Below are positions 1,272 through 25,604 of a stretch of DNA of 50,235 bases, one piece after another. This DNA is from Candidatus Binatia bacterium (GTDB taxonomy: Bacteria; Vulcanimicrobiota; Vulcanimicrobiia; Vulcanimicrobiales; Vulcanimicrobiaceae). A program made the position numbers and the translations under genes. The notes beneath the pieces are model-generated. The model saw only the letters and a program-made list of their open reading frames with translations. It did no database searches and was not told the origin of the DNA. Numbering within the stretch: the stretch's first letter is position 1; each line of letters opens with the position of its first letter. The DNA lies in assembly GCA_035541935.1 (NCBI GenBank), contig DATKMJ010000028.1, forward strand, positions 1 to 50,235. Direction: 5' to 3'.

Positions 1272-1754
1272 GGTCGCCTCCGATGCGCGGAGATCCCCGC
1301 GGGACCAGAGGAGTTCAAGCAGGATTAATGTCGGCCCTGGAAGTGCCCACCTGCCTGCCGGAGACAGAGAGAGAGGGAGCCTGGTCGTCGGGCCTATTTC
1401 TGCACGGAGACTGCCGCGATTCCGAGATATTCTTCACGCGCCTGAGGGCTCGGCGACGGGCGGTGACGACGTTCCATGGGTCCAGATTGGCATTGGTGCG
1501 ATCGTGCTGATTGTCGTAATTTTCTGGTTCATCAGAATGCAAGTGGGCCCGTGATACGTAGCGCCGCCGGTCACGACGTCTGCTGCCGATAGTCAACCGC
1601 CCGTAACGGGCCGCCCTTTGTTTCGAAAGAAGGTTCGCAAATCTCGCGAACGTTGCGGGTTGCCCTCCCGCCCTCCGCAGTAAAAAAGGCCGCGCTGCTC
1701 GGAAACACGAACGGCCTTCCATCGCCGACGGGTGCGGTTCAAGGAGCGTATCGC
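1272..1754. other. Intergenic region with palindromes and a possible tiny membrane ORF
   Basis: This 483-base gap separates the divergent FAD oxidase and NHL lipoprotein genes. It holds a 13-base palindrome (GCCCGT-A-ACGGGC, 1599-1611) and a short inverted repeat (GTTCGC at 1633-1638, GCGAAC at 1646-1651), either of which could be an operator or hairpin in the leader of the downstream gene. A plus-strand reading frame ending at 1554 encodes a hydrophobic stretch (VQIGIGAIVLIVVIFWF) but has no clear ribosome-binding site. Nothing else was recognised. Confidence 0.4.
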
Positions 1755-2654
1755 ATGAGAACCTACGTCGCATCGCTCGCGTTCGTCGCTCTACTCGCTG
1801 CCTGCGCAGGGTCGCGCCCTTTTGCCGTAACTCCTCCCGGCTCGAGCGTGGATGCGAGCGCGTCGAGACCCCAAACAATTAGCACGAAAGATCTCTTCGT
1901 CGTCTTCCAATACGGCAGCACCGGCTTTGCCTTAATCCTCCAAAATGGAACGTTCAAATATGTCGGCGAAATAAACGGCCTCGGGTTGCCGTACGGGAGT
2001 TGGGTCGACTCGCACGGTCTCTATATTGCAAGTTATTCTCGCTACCCTGACATCGTCGAGTTTAGTTCTCCAAGTAAGGCGCCGTTCAGTTACACGGCGC
2101 ACGTTTCATATCCACTCGCCGTTACGACCGATTCTTCCGGCAACGTTTACGAAACCGATAACTCAGGCTGGATAAACGAGTACGCACAGAGGAAAGACGC
2201 GACGAAGAAGCGCTGCGCCGTAACCTACCCCGTCGGCGTTGCCGTGGACGGCGCGGGACACGTGTTCGTGACCTTGGACTCTACCGGCGCGAGCCAGATC
2301 GTAGAGTTTACGGACTTCAGCACGTGTTCTAGCCAAACCCTCGGCGTCAAGTTGCGGCGGGGCGAGGAAATGGCTCTCGACAAGAGCGATAACATCATCG
2401 TCTGCGACGCGGACGCCAGGACGGTCGATATCATCAAGCCGCCGTACAAGTCGGTGTCGGGCCATCTCGGCTCGGGCTTTAAGGGCCCCGTCGACGTGAC
2501 GATCAATAGCGCAAATAACCGTGTATGGATCGTCGACGCAACGGCGAAGATCGTCTACGATCTCTACTACCCCAGCGGCAAACTAGTAGCGAAGCTCGCT
2601 TTTACCGCCGGCACGCCCATCAGTGCCGTGGATGGAAGCAACTACGTCCCGTAA
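1755..2654 (+). CDS. NHL-type beta-propeller lipoprotein
   Basis: Predicted exported lipoprotein of 299 residues. The N-terminus is a type II signal peptide (FVALLAAC, Cys near residue 16). The rest consists of repeated blades of the NHL/SMP-30 kind, with recurring elements such as GVAVDGAGHVFVT, MALDKSDNIIVCD and VDIIKPPYKSV. The last two also occur in the lipoproteins at 23.4-25.6 kb, so these are distant paralogs. The ATG at 1755 follows AAGGAG and is preferred over an earlier in-frame ATG at 1653, which would bury the signal peptide. The stop overlaps the next start by one base (TAATG). The function is unknown; such propellers usually bind ligands or proteins at the cell surface. Confidence 0.8.
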   Translation: MRTYVASLAFVALLAACAGSRPFAVTPPGSSVDASASRPQTISTKDLFVVFQYGSTGFALILQNGTFKYVGEINGLGLPYGSWVDSHGLYIASYSRYPDIVEFSSPSKAPFSYTAHVSYPLAVTTDSSGNVYETDNSGWINEYAQRKDATKKRCAVTYPVGVAVDGAGHVFVTLDSTGASQIVEFTDFSTCSSQTLGVKLRRGEEMALDKSDNIIVCDADARTVDIIKPPYKSVSGHLGSGFKGPVDVTINSANNRVWIVDATAKIVYDLYYPSGKLVAKLAFTAGTPISAVDGSNYVP

Positions 2655-3104: not shown

Positions 3105-4097
3105 TTATTTCCTCGCCGCCGTCACGCCGAGCGGCAGGACGAAATCGCCGGTAAAGACGGCAACCGGCGATCCGCCGTCCGGATACTTGAAGAGTTCGCC
3201 GCCGTTGTTGCCGGCATCCGCGCAATAGACGAAGCCCTTAACGATCCATGTCTGCGAGCAGTCGCCCGCGCCGGCCAATTGCACCGAGCTCTGCAGCGTC
3301 GCCGTCGTTCCGTTGATCGTGTACCGATAAAACTCGCTCGTATCCTGATCGAAGACGGTGAAATACTTTCCGTCCCATTGGAGGGAGCCGGGAAACTTCA
3401 CGGTGTTGCTGATCGTGACCGTCTTAAACTTACTGCCGCCCTTCGGCAGCTCGACGAGCTGGAAGTTCGCCCTGCTGTCCCAGCCGTCTGCGAAGAGATC
3501 TCCTCGGTCGTCATATCCGTCGAAGTACTCGGCGGTCAACTGTGTGGTGTAGACTTTGCCCGAGCCGGTCGCGCCCTTATAGACGACGACGTCGCCCCTG
3601 CCGGTGCCGCCGAATATGCCGACCGCAAGATCGCCGTCGGTATTCATCGCACAGCTGGACGGCATGCCCACGGCGTCGCCCAGCTTCCGGACGAATTTAT
3701 TCGGAACCCGGTACTCGATGATGCGGCCGTGCGCTTGGACGATCCAGAATACGCGCTTTCCATAGCCGTACAGGACGTTCGTGCACGCCTGTCCGCCGAC
3801 GTGGTCGATCGTGCCGACCGCCTCATCGCTCTGAGGATAGTCGAAGATGTCGGCGTACGTGCTGTAGTTATTGCTGATGTACTCGTAGTGATTCGATTTT
3901 GGAATTTGATCGGGAACGATCGTTGCATACCGCGGCATCGGATTCAGCCGAGCCGCGGTGACGGGCCTTCCGGCTATCCAGAGGATCTTGCCGTGGTACT
4001 CTCCGCCGTCAAACGTGGCGGTCGACGGCGCTCCGACGGAGGCGCCGCTGCACGCCGAGCAGAGCGCAAACGCAGCGATGATGAGGGCGCGTTTCAC
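3105..4097 (-). CDS. Propeller-like lipoprotein
   Basis: A 330-residue predicted lipoprotein. The signal peptide ends in ALCSACSG, with the lipid-modified Cys at about residue 16. The mature part carries repeated beta-strand blades (for example GDLAVGIFGGTGRGDVVVYKG, FADGWDSRANFQLVELPKGG, LQWDGKYFTVFDQDTSEFYRY) typical of an NHL/YVTN-like propeller, diverged from the other lipoproteins in this window. It is the last gene of a three-gene exported-protein cassette: its ATG overlaps the stop of the glycine-rich gene by four bases. A surface binding or scaffolding role is plausible, but no enzyme motif is seen. Confidence 0.7.
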   Translation of the reverse strand: MKRALIIAAFALCSACSGASVGAPSTATFDGGEYHGKILWIAGRPVTAARLNPMPRYATIVPDQIPKSNHYEYISNNYSTYADIFDYPQSDEAVGTIDHVGGQACTNVLYGYGKRVFWIVQAHGRIIEYRVPNKFVRKLGDAVGMPSSCAMNTDGDLAVGIFGGTGRGDVVVYKGATGSGKVYTTQLTAEYFDGYDDRGDLFADGWDSRANFQLVELPKGGSKFKTVTISNTVKFPGSLQWDGKYFTVFDQDTSEFYRYTINGTTATLQSSVQLAGAGDCSQTWIVKGFVYCADAGNNGGELFKYPDGGSPVAVFTGDFVLPLGVTAARK

Positions 4098-5086
4098 CAG
4101 GAGATCAAAACGCGGCCGTCTCCAGTCCGCGCTCCTCCTCGGACGTTTTTGATGATCTTCGCGGACTTTTCGATGAACGAAGATCCGCCGCCGCCACCAC
4201 CGCCGCCACCCCAGGCGCAGTAGCCAAATTCACCATAGTAGGTGCCGCCGCAGTTCATGGCGGCTCCGCCGCCGCCACCGCCGCCGTAGCGCCCGCCGCC
4301 GCCACCGCCGCCGCCGGCGTAGCAACCCCCGCCACCGGCGTTACCGCCGCGTCCGCCGTGGTGCCGCGCGCCCGTGCCGCCGGTTCCGCCCGAACAACTG
4401 TCGCCACTGGCGCCCCGGCCGCCGCCGCCGCCCGCGCTCTGACTGCCGCCTCGGCCGCCACTACCGCCGCGGGCTTCATAATCTCCAACCGCGCCGGCGG
4501 TACCGTCGCCCGCAGTCGTTCCGCCTCCGTCGCCGCCCTGGCCGTAGCCGCTGGCCCCACCGCGAACGCGGGCGTCTCGGTGATAGTGCTCTCCGGCGAG
4601 GGAACCCGCTCCGCCGCCGCCGCCGGCGACGATGATGCGAACACCGGTAGCGAGCCGCACGTCGGATGCGCCGCCGCCGCCGGCGCTGTGGTGATGCCGG
4701 CTTCCCGAGCCGGCGCCGCCGCCGTTGAATGCCGTGTGAACGCTTCTGCGGCCGATTCCCCCGACGAAAATCGAGAGCGACTCGCCGGGCTCGACGGAGA
4801 TCGCCGCTTTCACGAGCCCGCCGTGTCCGCCCGGATAGGAGCCAATGGCGCCGCCGCTCGCGCCGTAAGCCGTGATCGTCAGCAGCGTTACGCCGCTCGG
4901 CACGACGAACGTCTGCTTCTTCCCCGTGTAGGTGAACGTTTGGCTGCCGGCCGGCGCGTTTGCGGCGATAACCGAGCTCGGCAGCACACGCGTGTTCGAG
5001 CGCATCGCACAGTCCGCGAGACCCAGCGCCAAGATTCCACCTAGCGTGGCGGAGAGAATACGGCGGCCGGCATCGCAGACGTTCAT
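4094..5086 (-). CDS. Glycine-rich exported protein (ALK-type glycine-rich domain)
   Basis: A 330-residue protein, extremely rich in Gly. The N-terminus has a signal peptide ending in LALGLADC, a possible lipobox. Next comes FTYTGKKQTFVVPSGVTLLT and TAYGASGGA, the conserved opening of the bacterial glycine-rich domain related to PF12810. A long Gly-repeat region with scattered paired Cys and His follows, closing with GGGSSFIE and DGRVLISW. Similar proteins may form poly-Gly-II-like rigid surface modules. The ATG at 5086 is preferred to one at 5122 because it leaves the signal peptide at the N-terminus and lies four bases after the upstream stop. Downstream it overlaps the next gene by four bases. 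The GGC/GCC triplet density here is the strongest compositional anomaly in the window. Confidence 0.75.
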   Translation of the reverse strand: MNVCDAGRRILSATLGGILALGLADCAMRSNTRVLPSSVIAANAPAGSQTFTYTGKKQTFVVPSGVTLLTITAYGASGGAIGSYPGGHGGLVKAAISVEPGESLSIFVGGIGRRSVHTAFNGGGAGSGSRHHHSAGGGGASDVRLATGVRIIVAGGGGGAGSLAGEHYHRDARVRGGASGYGQGGDGGGTTAGDGTAGAVGDYEARGGSGGRGGSQSAGGGGGRGASGDSCSGGTGGTGARHHGGRGGNAGGGGCYAGGGGGGGGRYGGGGGGGAAMNCGGTYYGEFGYCAWGGGGGGGGGSSFIEKSAKIIKNVRGGARTGDGRVLISW

Positions 5087-5090
5087 CGAC

Positions 5091-5612
5091 TTAGTGCAGC
5101 TGCTGGAGCAGCGTTCCGCCATCCTTGAGGGAGTTCGTCGTCGCGTCGCCGGCTTTCTTTCCCAGGTGATAGGTTAGATCGCTCCCGCCGGTGACAGGGC
5201 CGAACTTCTTGCACGTCGAGATGTTCCCGGTGCCGCTGCCCGTCACGCCGCCGTCCTTCGGATGCTTGCCTTTGATCTCGAAGCTCTCCGAGAAGTTCCA
5301 GACCGTCTGACTGCCGACGATCGCAAAGTTCCAGCCTCCGACCATCGTGAACTTTCCCTTCACTCGGCCCTTCGCCGTGCCGCTTGCGCTGAATTCGGCG
5401 ACTCCGGCAAGGCCCGACGGATTGCACTCGACCGTCTCGACGCTGATGTGCGTCGCCTTGAGGATTTCGTACGGCTTCTTCTTCTTGTCGATGCGATCGC
5501 CGGTTTGCACCCGGGCCGGGGAGAGAGCCGGTGCCGCCGGCGTTACGGTCGAGCAACCCGCCGAGGCGGCGATCGTTGCGGCGAGCGACAGCAAAGGAAT
5601 TATGGACTTCAT
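5091..5612 (-). CDS. Small lipoprotein of unknown function
   Basis: A 173-residue protein with a clear type II signal peptide (IAASAGC, Cys about residue 20), then a Pro/Ala linker and a KKKK patch. The mature domain is beta-rich and Gly-rich (AEFSASGTAKGRVKGKF, GWNFAIVGSQTVWNFSESFE, GVTGSGTGNISTCKKFG). The ATG at 5612 is set by GGAGG just upstream; a longer in-frame reading to 5801 overlaps the divergent gene and is unlikely. It is the first gene of the cassette with the glycine-rich protein and propeller lipoprotein, so all three probably work together in the envelope. I recognise no family. Confidence 0.7.
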   Translation of the reverse strand: MKSIIPLLSLAATIAASAGCSTVTPAAPALSPARVQTGDRIDKKKKPYEILKATHISVETVECNPSGLAGVAEFSASGTAKGRVKGKFTMVGGWNFAIVGSQTVWNFSESFEIKGKHPKDGGVTGSGTGNISTCKKFGPVTGGSDLTYHLGKKAGDATTNSLKDGGTLLQQLH

Positions 5613-5728
5613 GCGACCTCCTTCTTGCTTGCCCACGCGGGGTTCAAGCAAGGGGAAGCCCGGGCCTGGGAGCGCCGCCCTGCTTCCCCCCGGGGAAAGC
5701 CGGCCAAGCTGGAGAAGCGGCCCGCTCG

Positions 5729-7737: not shown

Positions 7738-9348
7738 TTACTGGATCGTGACGTTCACCGGCTGCGAGGCGATGCCGTTCGCTATCACTTCCAGCGTGCT
7801 CGCACCGGTATCGATCGTCGACGGGACGTCGAACATCGTCGAGACCTTTTCCTTCGACGCGACGCCCATGAACGTCGTGCCGTGGGTTCTCGCGTAGAAC
7901 ACGTGTCCGGTCGAGTTGTTCGTGATTCTCACGAGCGGGTAGTTCGTCGCCGACTGCGCGTCGTCGCCGTACATGTTCGTCTGCGAGACGCCGTTGAATC
8001 CTTTTCCACTGATCTGATACGTGTTGCCGTGGGTGAGGGTCGTCGGCACCTTCGAGATGTGCGGCGCGTACTTGTGACCGCCTTTGCGGCTTGACGTATA
8101 GACCTCGATATCCGTCGAGCCGTCGATCTCGAGAACTTGGCCCGTCGGGAGCACCATGAGGCGAATGTTATACGTCGAGTCGTTCGGCGCGTCGGGCGGC
8201 GCGGTGATCTGCTTGAGCTTCTTGCCGTTGAACAGGTAGAACAGCGCCGGCGCTTGATAGAGGCCGGGACTCGCCGGAATCATCACTTGGCCGTCCGTCA
8301 GAAGCGCCGAGGGGCCGTCTGCAACGTCGAGCTGCTGTCCGCTGACGACCGGGAAGGTTGGACCCTGGACGAACGTCGCGCTTTTCGAGTTATAGATCGC
8401 GGTATAGCCGCTCGCGCCGGCGACGAAAACCGTGCCGTCGGGACGCAGCGTGGACGGCCCGATCTCTTCTCCGGAAGTCAGGTTCACGGGCGCCGCAGTC
8501 GTCGAGGTCCACGTATTCGACTTCTCGCTGTACAGCTGCGCGCCGGGCTCGGAGATAACGTTCACGACGAACACGTCGCTGTTAGGAAGCAGCGCCCAGC
8601 CTTCTTCGCTGTTCGCATCGGTCTTGCCGTTGCCGGGCCCGGTCTGCGTCCACGAGAGCGACGTCTCGTTGAGGAGCGCCTGATACGTGTAGCAGCAGTT
8701 GCCGATCATATACGTGCCGTCGTCGAGAACGACGCTCTGACCGTCGCCGATCGATCCCCAGCCGCTCGGCGCCGCGACGGCGGTCCAGCTGTTGGCGACC
8801 GGATCGTAGATCGCGCCCAGCGGCGTCTCGACGGGGCTGCACGAACCGCCGTTATACTCGCCGCCGTTGACCATGACTTTTCCGTCTGCGAGTACCGCTG
8901 AGGCAAAGTAGAGCGGTCCGTAGTTCGACGGCATCGACGCCATCTTCGTCCACGTGCCGTTGACGTAGTTGCCGGTCTGATCCGGCTTGAGGCTATACCA
9001 GTTCGGCGTGCAGTAGTCGTGAACGAGGATCGTGCCGTCGGTCATCTGCAGCGGCGTATCCGGACCGTTCGTCCACGAGGGAGCCGACGCGATCTCTTGC
9101 CAGCCGGCCGCGCGCGCGCGTTCGCGCTCGGCCGCGGTGATGCGGTGCCGGTGCGCCGGCGGGCGCGGCGGCGTATGCGCGAGCCGCAGGAAACGCGGCT
9201 TGCCGGGCTCCGGCGCCGGCAGATGCGCGGCATACGGCGGGGCCGCTACGTTCGAAGTCGTCGCCGGCGTCGTGGCGCTCCCGCCGCTGCACGCCGTGAA
9301 GAGCAGCGCCGCGGCGGCGCCTGAAAGAAAAACCTGGGTGCGTTGCAT
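7738..9348 (-). CDS. Kelch/galactose-oxidase-like lipoprotein with C-terminal E-set domain
   Basis: A 536-residue exported protein. The signal peptide ends in ALLFTACSGG, a lipobox with Cys near residue 20. A Pro-rich linker leads into Kelch-type blades (ASAVLADGKVMVNGGEYNGG, SVVLDDGTYMIGNCC, STLRPDGTVFVAGASG, LTDGQVMIPAS) forming a seven-bladed propeller like that of galactose/glyoxal oxidase. The last ~110 residues (from YAPHISKVPTTLTHGNTY) resemble the Ig-like E-set domain (DUF1929) that caps those enzymes. I did not identify the full copper-ligand set (Tyr-Cys, Tyr, two His), so enzyme activity is unproven. The ATG at 9348 follows GGAGG and is favoured over 9372. Confidence 0.75.
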   Translation of the reverse strand: MQRTQVFLSGAAAALLFTACSGGSATTPATTSNVAAPPYAAHLPAPEPGKPRFLRLAHTPPRPPAHRHRITAAERERARAAGWQEIASAPSWTNGPDTPLQMTDGTILVHDYCTPNWYSLKPDQTGNYVNGTWTKMASMPSNYGPLYFASAVLADGKVMVNGGEYNGGSCSPVETPLGAIYDPVANSWTAVAAPSGWGSIGDGQSVVLDDGTYMIGNCCYTYQALLNETSLSWTQTGPGNGKTDANSEEGWALLPNSDVFVVNVISEPGAQLYSEKSNTWTSTTAAPVNLTSGEEIGPSTLRPDGTVFVAGASGYTAIYNSKSATFVQGPTFPVVSGQQLDVADGPSALLTDGQVMIPASPGLYQAPALFYLFNGKKLKQITAPPDAPNDSTYNIRLMVLPTGQVLEIDGSTDIEVYTSSRKGGHKYAPHISKVPTTLTHGNTYQISGKGFNGVSQTNMYGDDAQSATNYPLVRITNNSTGHVFYARTHGTTFMGVASKEKVSTMFDVPSTIDTGASTLEVIANGIASQPVNVTIQ

Positions 9349-9433
9349 GATACCTCCGAGTGCGTGGGTCACGAGCGCCGCGTGACGCGGTGCAAGGTCC
9401 GCGCCTTCGGGGGAGAACGGAGCTCGGTCGTGA

Positions 9434-23380: not shown

Positions 23381-24400
23381 CTATTTCAGCGTCGAGTAGG
23401 TCGCAACGCCGGACGGATCGGTAAGCCCGTTCTTCGAGCCGAGCGTGGCGATGCGCCCGCCCGACGGATACTTGTCGACGAGAACGTCCGCATCGCTGCT
23501 GGGATCGGCGATGAAGATCGTCGTGTTTGCCGCGTCGAGCGCCACGTGGAAGCTGTCCTGGCCGCCCTTGATCGTCGAGCCGACCGATTTGTACGGCGGC
23601 GGCACGATGTCGACCCCGATCGTCTGATCGCAGACGACGAGGTTCTGCTTCGCGTCGAGCTGGAGACCGCCGGCGTATCCGAGCGGCACCTTTAGCATCG
23701 TCGCTTTGCAGCCTTTGAGGCCCCCCTTGTACTCGATGATGTTCGCCGTGCCGTTGGAGTTGTTGCCGGAGACGAATACGTCGCCTTTGGAGTCGACGAC
23801 GACGCCCTCGTTGGCAAGCTTCGTGCTGCAGCTGGCGATCGGGTTATCCCGACCCTGCGGGTACTCGACGACGACGCTGGGTTGACCGCTCGCGTAATCT
23901 GCGACGAAGACGTGGTTCTTTTTGTCCACGGTCACGTTGACCGGATCGAGCAGATCGACGGAGTAGGTGTGCGTGAGTTTACCCGTTTTACTGTACTCCG
24001 TTACGTTGACGCCGGCATAGTCTGCAACGTACAGGTTGCCCTTGGCGTCGTAGTAGTCGCCGTCGGGACCGTTGAGACCGTCGGTGATCGTCTCGGCAAG
24101 CTTATACGAGGGGTTGAGCACTTCGACCGCACCCGAGCCCCAGTCGGAGACGGCGATATCGGCGAGCTTGCTGACGTCCGGATGCGTGTCCGGACGCACG
24201 TACGGCGCCTGACCGAAGCGAAGCATCTGAAGATATTGGGGTGCGACGCCCGTACGCTCCGGCGCAAACTGCGAGTTGCGGAGTTGCGATTGTACACCCG
24301 GTACCGCCGATTGCATCCCGGTCAGGCCGTTGCCGGAACACGCAGCGAGAAGGGCCGCGCCGGAAAGGGCAGCAGCCGCGAGTGTTAAGTTGGTTCGCAC
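23381..24400 (-). CDS. NHL-repeat lipoprotein (paralog 1)
   Basis: A 339-residue surface lipoprotein with signal peptide LSGAALLAACSGNGL (lipobox Cys near residue 20) and a linker carrying RTGVAPQYLQMLRFGQ. Six or so NHL blades follow (LNGPDGDYYDAKGNLYVADYAG, VTVDKKNHVFVADYASG, EGVVVDSKGDVFVSGNN, LQLDAKQNLVVCDQ). The GTG at 24400 is chosen as start: AGGAG (24408-24412) sits seven bases upstream, whereas the ATG at 24418 lies before that site. The aligned paralog has TTG at the same place. The two genes are adjacent, in the same direction, and share leader sequence, so they arose by duplication. Their role is unknown. Confidence 0.82.
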   Translation of the reverse strand: MRTNLTLAAAALSGAALLAACSGNGLTGMQSAVPGVQSQLRNSQFAPERTGVAPQYLQMLRFGQAPYVRPDTHPDVSKLADIAVSDWGSGAVEVLNPSYKLAETITDGLNGPDGDYYDAKGNLYVADYAGVNVTEYSKTGKLTHTYSVDLLDPVNVTVDKKNHVFVADYASGQPSVVVEYPQGRDNPIASCSTKLANEGVVVDSKGDVFVSGNNSNGTANIIEYKGGLKGCKATMLKVPLGYAGGLQLDAKQNLVVCDQTIGVDIVPPPYKSVGSTIKGGQDSFHVALDAANTTIFIADPSSDADVLVDKYPSGGRIATLGSKNGLTDPSGVATYSTLK

Positions 24401-24593: not shown

Positions 24594-25604
24594 TTACGGT
24601 CCGTAGGGCGTCGTGGCGACGCCGGCCGGATCCGAGAGTCCGTTACCCGAGCCGAGGGTCGTTATCGGGGTACCCGAGGGATACTTGTCCACGACTACCT
24701 CGGCTAAGCCCACATCGGCAGTGAAGAGCGTCTTGTACTTCTTGTCCATGGCGACGTGGAACGGATCCGAGAAGCCCGAGATCGTCGACGACACCGAGGT
24801 GTACGGCGGCTTGATGATGTCGACCGTCGGTCCCAGTTGGTCGCAGGCAACGAGGTCCTTCTTCTTGTCCAGCTGGAGGCCGCCGGCAAACGCCAGCGTA
24901 ACGCTGAGCGTGGTACCGGAGCATCCCGAGAGACCGCCGCTGTACTCGATGATGTTGCCCTGGCCGGTGTTCGGGTTGTTGCCCGAAACGAAAACGTCGC
25001 CTTGCTTGTCAACTGCGATGCCTTCGTTCGCGAGACCCGTGTTGCAGCTGTTCGACGGGCTGTTGCTGCCTTGCGGGTACTCCACAACGACGCTGGCCGA
25101 GCCCGAGCCGTAGTCGGCAACGAAGACGTGGCCGGCCTTATCGGTCGTGACTCCGACCGGGTCACCGAGGCCGCTGGAGTACGTGCTGACCAGCGAGTTC
25201 GATTTGTTGTACTCGGTCACGTCCACGCCGGCGTAGTTTGCGACGTAGAGGTTGCCTTTCGTATCGTAGAAGTCGCCGTCCGGACCGTTGAGGCCCGACG
25301 TGATCGTCGACGAGAGACCGTACGACTTGTTGAGGATTTCGACGGCACCGCTGCCGAAGTCGGAGACCGCGAGGTACTTGAGCTTGCCTCCGTCGGGCCG
25401 CACGTGCACGCCTTGGCCGAACCGGAGCATCTGAAGATACTTCGGTGCGACGCCGGTGCGCTCGGCCGTCATGTGCGAGTGCTGGAACTGCGTTGACGTT
25501 CCGGGCACCGACTGCATTCCGGATAGGCCGTTACCGGAGCACGCAGCGAGCAGAGCCGCGCCCGTAAGCAGGGCTGCGGCCGCGATTGTTGAGCTATTTC
25601 GCAA
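24594..25604 (-). CDS. NHL-repeat lipoprotein (paralog 2)
   Basis: A 336-residue lipoprotein closely similar to its downstream neighbour throughout (ALLTGAALLAACSGNGLSGMQ; RTGVAPKYLQMLRFGQG; LNGPDGDFYDTKGNLYVANYAG; EGIAVDKQGDVFVSGNNPN; VDIIKPPYTSV). The start is taken as TTG 25604: AGGAG (25613-25617) lies eight bases upstream, and the next codons align with those after the GTG of paralog 1. The ATG at 25643 would precede the ribosome-binding site. The product is probably an outer-membrane or surface propeller. It shares the VDIIKPPY blade with the lipoprotein at 1.8 kb. Confidence 0.82.
   Translation of the reverse strand: MRNSSTIAAAALLTGAALLAACSGNGLSGMQSVPGTSTQFQHSHMTAERTGVAPKYLQMLRFGQGVHVRPDGGKLKYLAVSDFGSGAVEILNKSYGLSSTITSGLNGPDGDFYDTKGNLYVANYAGVDVTEYNKSNSLVSTYSSGLGDPVGVTTDKAGHVFVADYGSGSASVVVEYPQGSNSPSNSCNTGLANEGIAVDKQGDVFVSGNNPNTGQGNIIEYSGGLSGCSGTTLSVTLAFAGGLQLDKKKDLVACDQLGPTVDIIKPPYTSVSSTISGFSDPFHVAMDKKYKTLFTADVGLAEVVVDKYPSGTPITTLGSGNGLSDPAGVATTPYGP

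Follow-up and report, generated by a model that had tools for sequence, protein, structure and literature searches.

A predicted bacterial lipoprotein with an ALK/LTK-type glycine-rich module and its recurrent pairing with beta-propeller lipoproteins in Eremiobacterota

Three tightly packed genes, P0001, P0002 and P0003, lie in a 50,235-nucleotide stretch (hereafter, the window) of the genome of a soil bacterium of the Eremiobacterota (2.4 Mb in 71 contigs). The product of the middle gene, P0002, contains a TNF-like and glycine-rich (TG) module resembling that of the receptors ALK and LTK, and the product of the gene downstream, P0003, is a six-bladed beta-propeller. In related species, genes of these two families are adjacent far above chance, a pattern that points to a diversified system of recognition at the cell surface. 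We put at roughly 55% the probability that P0002 and P0003 represent a recognition module displayed on the surface, its tips variable, in which the glycine-rich protein is co-expressed with a propeller lipoprotein from a small operon, with P0001 as an accessory component. The fold classes of both proteins are already known; in the literature searched, with most subscription journals outside its coverage, we found no description of a TG family that is encoded by cells, anchored by lipid and coupled time and again to propeller lipoproteins.

If this reading is correct, the ligand-binding module of an animal receptor has free-standing, lipid-anchored kin in soil bacteria that diversified as in phage tail tips and were repeatedly coupled to a propeller. 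Such proteins would provide a tractable minimal system for exploring what TG modules bind and how the ALK/LTK ectodomain originated, as well as a first way into the function of two Eremiobacterota gene families with many copies.

Gene layout and export signals

All three genes are on the minus strand. P0001 (5091..5612; 173 aa, ATG start) is the first gene of the set and is preceded by a Shine-Dalgarno sequence, AAGGAGGT (5616..5623, minus strand), read directly from the sequence. Four bases (5090-5087) separate its stop codon from the start of P0002 (4094..5086; 330 aa), and P0003 (3105..4097; 330 aa) begins with a GTG that lies in a four-base overlap with the P0002 stop (GTGA, 4094..4097, minus strand). 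The spacing and overlap by which an earlier note had tied three exported proteins together are thus correct in every coordinate. By eye, no Shine-Dalgarno sequence is evident ahead of the P0002 and P0003 starts. The single Shine-Dalgarno sequence, the four-base spacing and the four-base overlap together suggest one message with translational coupling; P0001-P0003 would then form a small operon encoding lipoproteins predicted for the envelope, with P0003 made by coupling with P0002. These are real genes, and homologues of all three exist in other species.

A scan for promoters and terminators produced nothing exceeding chance, and an Rfam scan returned tRNAs only. In the P0001 leader (5610-5728, minus strand), a modelled hairpin pairs the Shine-Dalgarno sequence, yet is no better than those of shuffled sequences (z -0.34); its 15-base core is absent from the fetched loci except for three that overlap this same place. 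Among the genes neighbouring the set, those matched to Pfam families encode a GT87 protein and a kelch protein. The latter is a kelch-type predicted lipoprotein (7738-9354, minus strand); facing the set on the other side is an NHL-type propeller gene with a lipoprotein-like start (1653-2651, plus strand; Pfam NHL E 1.9e-7). The kelch gene brings the number of propeller-like genes within 8 kb to three. Farther along the window, two tandem propeller-family genes with 66% mutual identity (23384-24316 and 24597-25517, minus strand) adjoin a tRNA-Arg/tRNA-Ser pair.

Each of the three products starts with a hydrophobic signal terminating at a lipobox-like Cys, which is C20 of SAGC in P0001, C16 of SAC in P0003 and C26 of LADC in P0002, where the Asp is atypical. 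The earlier claim that all three are exported is borne out at the level of prediction: the signal peptide with a terminal lipobox Cys that is diagnostic of bacterial lipoproteins is present in P0001, P0003 and, in an atypical form, P0002, and lipidation is predicted. C26 is invariant in an alignment of seven members including relatives of P0002, and a lipobox-like motif precedes the domain in 64 of the 67 distinct full-length members of the glycine-rich family, when sought with a permissive pattern that accepts LADC as well. This conservation makes it likely that P0002, like the other two, is a lipoprotein, a point beyond the earlier note.

The glycine-rich module of P0002

The glycine-rich nature noted for P0002 is confirmed: Gly accounts for 107 of the 330 residues overall and for 96 of 228 in the glycine-rich part (residues 75-302; 4181..4864, minus strand). 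The identification goes further, because P0002 matches a single Pfam family, PF12810 (ALK_LTK_GRD), with an E value of 2.4e-7 and 31.4 bits against a cut-off of 24.5, although at E 0.01 only 3 of the 7 members of the P0002 alignment match this model. Residues 1-50 comprise the signal, the Cys and a linker. The opening FTYTG..QTFVVPSGV, which had been noted as conserved, is nearly fixed across the 67 sequences (F51 96%, G55 94%, Q58 97%, F60 97%, V62 100%, P63 99%).

The AlphaFold2 model of P0002, built from the 7-row alignment, has a mean pLDDT of 63.5 and a pTM of 0.68; the jelly-roll strands are confident and the loops are poor, with several loop regions below pLDDT 50. At this confidence, the model follows the order that characterizes the ALK/LTK TG module, that is, a jelly roll, then packed glycine-rich strands, then a return to the jelly roll. 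When the model was searched with Foldseek, the top 21 matches were all ALK or LTK (best, 7nx0_B of LTK, E 2.5e-8), with TM-scores of only 0.24-0.42 and large rmsd. In VIA-align comparisons, residues 43-330 align with ALK/LTK TG structures at Z 13.9-15.2 over 169-185 residues (2.7-3.4 A, 23-33% identity), including Z 14.4-15.2 for 7nx1, 7lrz and 9g5i. Domain order and fold in the model are thus those of the ALK/LTK TG module (PF12810; 7nx0, 7nx1, 7lrz), and these matches support a recognition-type module in P0002. Unlike ALK and LTK, P0002 is a 330-aa bacterial predicted lipoprotein that lacks the intracellular kinase domain of these receptor tyrosine kinases as well as their EGF-like and MAM domains, and its loops differ from theirs. 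Searches of PDB sequences were far less informative: the P0002 profile reached LTK only at E 4, and single proteins of the set returned nothing useful.

Sequence conservation within the family is sharply partitioned. The alignment of the 67 members (rows with at least 85% coverage) has 280 columns, of which 65 reach an identity of 95% or more; Gly occupies 49 of these 65, whereas variation in both sequence and length is concentrated in eight loops (residues 81-85, 113-117, 128-133, 163-180, 199-207, 229-232, 251-255 and 277-292). Near-fixed Gly combined with variable loops is the pattern expected of a fixed scaffold with changeable contacts. We picture P0002 as a putative cell-encoded version of the TG recognition module: the jelly-roll base would sit near the lipid anchor, the packed glycine-rich strands would form a rigid conserved stem, and the loops at the far end of the stem would contact a ligand, be it a polymer, a surface structure or a partner cell. 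In some relatives (L048, L053 and L191), a longer predicted lipoprotein carries the TG module as its C-terminal part.

Springtail antifreeze proteins consist of packed glycine-rich helices, and the record titles of several relatives refer to palsa metagenomes, which would fit a coat protein with a structural or cryoprotective, ice-binding-like role in place of ligand binding. The nearest folds, however, are receptor and fibre recognition modules, the variation is carried by loops rather than by a flat repeated face, and a pasture sample is also among the recorded sources, so that we consider this explanation highly improbable.

After ALK and LTK, the P0002 model is most similar to the fibre of cyanophage Pam3 (gp24, 7ypx; Z 10.1 and 9.1) and the tail-tip protein of mycobacteriophage Bxb1 (9d93; Z 9.8), with which it has the TNF-like and glycine-rich end in common; beyond these, Z falls to 3.8. 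In PMC9608196, this architecture is presented as the host-recognition end of the Pam3 fibre, with a conserved stem and a hypervariable tip, a pattern like that seen in P0002. In PHROGs, P0002 is matched by three families, 7388, 1589 and 5811 (E 6e-13 to 7e-8), and one viral contig (L265, 4935-6209) encodes a TG-type protein among genes that, by eye, are tail-like and lysin-like. It is accordingly conceivable that the cell captured an adhesin from a phage tail tip and uses it, as the glycine-rich lipoprotein, to decoy phages or to block host receptors. Nevertheless, we deem such a role quite unlikely: the three PHROGs families carry no assigned function, a search of 50,697 phage and 72,556 plasmid records with P0002 yielded no match, and we recognised no phage genes in the neighbourhood of the set. 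Moreover, P0002 has neither the N-terminal alpha-helical trimerisation and baseplate-docking domain nor the tail-gene context of Pam3 gp24-type adhesins; a predicted lipid anchor takes the place of that domain, and the Z scores to ALK/LTK exceed those to the phage proteins. Viral relatives account for at least four loci among the matches listed; the TG-type protein of L265 looks, again on reading by eye, as though it terminates in a T9SS-like sorting tail.

The P0003 propeller and the distribution of the three families

The earlier description of P0003 as a propeller is supported. Its model (pLDDT 78.3, pTM 0.78) aligns with six-bladed YWTD and NHL chains at Z 24.4-21.1, led by the propellers of megalin (24.4) and nidogen (24.3), and the family profile finds Pizza6 (E 8.6e-51) and the NHL propeller of PknD (E 1.8e-26). 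P0003 by itself has no Pfam match above the cut-off; at E 0.01, NHL is matched by 9, SGL by 5 and SBBP by 3 of 48 family members, the SGL matches being the point of contact with propeller enzymes of the SMP-30/gluconolactonase type. Compared with the NHL/YWTD propellers that have the same fold (PknD 1rwi, nidogen 1npe, LDLR/LRP6 and the Pizza designs), P0003 is a single-domain predicted lipoprotein without kinase or EGF modules, and its family is present in many copies per genome within one genus (23 matches, P0003 included, in its own genome). A further difference is that the close P0003 subfamily (56-61% identical) keeps four Cys beyond the lipobox (105, 149, 280 and 292), and these might form extracytoplasmic disulfides. 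Under the recognition reading, P0003 would most likely provide a second binding face co-displayed with P0002, possibly within a physical complex, and the pair might function in adhesion or recognition at the cell surface.

Of 149 phylum genomes, 25 have relatives of P0002 and 26 have relatives of P0003; each of the two families is present in all 18 genomes of the same genus. The PF12810 model itself matches 21 of 148 phylum genomes and none of 14 control genomes. When the P0003-family alignment was compared with 84,980 named species genomes, all 44 loci retrieved carried the titles of Candidatus Eremiobacterota or Eremiobacteria metagenome-assembled genomes. P0001, which has no match in Pfam, NCBIfam or PHROGs, has relatives in only 6 of the 149 phylum genomes and in 4 of the 18 of the same genus.

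Recurrent pairing without fixed partners

We analyzed gene adjacency for 56 glycine-rich genes from 9 genomes, a subset of all matches chosen for fetching; the material comprised 40 regions surrounding such genes in eight other genomes, together with stretches of the host's own genome; genes were called with a crude codon-usage script instead of a standard gene finder, and propellers with a broad profile threshold (E 1e-5). The control consisted of 60 regions of 20 kb, taken at round rather than random coordinates, in four of these genomes (G042, G050, G038 and G108). A propeller gene is the immediate neighbour of 22 of the 56 glycine-rich genes. In the control regions, the corresponding figures are 5 of 50 for lipobox genes (Fisher P 7e-4) and 45 of 820 for other genes. 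For a propeller directly downstream on the same strand, the counts are 15/56 glycine-rich, 1/50 lipobox and 16/820 other genes. Within the four control genomes alone, propeller neighbours were found at 12 of 32 glycine-rich genes, against 51 of 871 in the control; when genes had been called more strictly, the figure for glycine-rich genes was 15 of 51, and a first control count over 20 regions gave 13 of 305 genes. By genome, the counts are 2/3 in the host (G000), 4/15 in G038, 0/4 in G040, 2/6 in G042, 5/8 in G050, 2/4 in G051, 6/12 in G052, 0/1 in G107 and 1/3 in G108. Four-base overlaps between glycine-rich and propeller genes were observed in three genomes (in the window, in G042 and in G038), with the overlap ATGA at L089 and L103.

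The first gene behaves differently. At the 11 places where P0001-family genes could be scored (a match on contig C133 of G040 lies in a stretch too short to score), a glycine-rich neighbour was found once, in the window itself, and a propeller neighbour at six. Furthermore, no such set is located beside the orthologues of the flanking genes examined in G042, G051, G050 and G037. We reject a fixed three-gene operon in view of this absence and of the rarity and the adjacency record of P0001. The cassette that the earlier note proposed is, therefore, not conserved as a unit of three; of the three-family co-occurrence that it named as a check, the glycine-rich/propeller pair recurs across genomes above the level of other lipoprotein genes, whereas P0001, among the places scored, adjoins a glycine-rich gene only here, where it would be an accessory lipoprotein.

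The pairing does not follow descent. In the propeller tree (62 rows with at least 80% coverage), the 14 propellers adjacent to glycine-rich genes require 12 changes, compared with a mean of 12.9 for shuffled labels (89 of 300 shuffles at or below), which leaves no excess clustering and led us to reject a clade of dedicated glycine-rich partners. Since the partners are scattered over the tree, no more clustered than shuffled labels, the pairing is a mosaic and no fixed partner pair is inherited: the association is between families rather than inherited partners. In the glycine-rich tree, we counted 45 changes of genome label, against a mean of 49.2 and a minimum of 45 in 200 shuffles, which argues against a recent lineage-specific burst of these genes in each genome.

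The main rival to the recognition module holds that there is no functional unit, and that both families are expanded sets of independent exported proteins in variable islands whose adjacency is a by-product of shared tolerated sites. This account, which we regard as possible but rather doubtful, draws on the same trees, in which propeller partners are scattered and glycine-rich paralogues hardly cluster by genome, on the 34 of 56 glycine-rich genes without a propeller neighbour, and on the missing set beside the flanking-gene orthologues. The lipoprotein control speaks against it, given that other lipoprotein genes in four of the same genomes do not pair in this way, and so do the orientation bias and the four-base overlaps.

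For the recognition module, the mosaic would mean that, across the genus, the two families are interchangeable pools, with a glycine-rich lipoprotein, often upstream, combined with one of many propeller lipoproteins. An extension that we consider speculative and fairly unlikely is that Eremiobacterota of this genus practise combinatorial surface recognition, translationally coupling a pool of receptor-like TG lipoproteins, with tip loops variable in sequence and length, to a larger pool of interchangeable propeller lipoproteins and thereby maintaining species-specific repertoires for partners, polymers or phages. If so, it would be a bacterial cellular counterpart of the module used in animal ALK/LTK and in phage tail tips. 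The densest locus observed (L096; 724000-743000 of contig C3 in G050) contains nine propeller-family and two glycine-rich genes within 19 kb.
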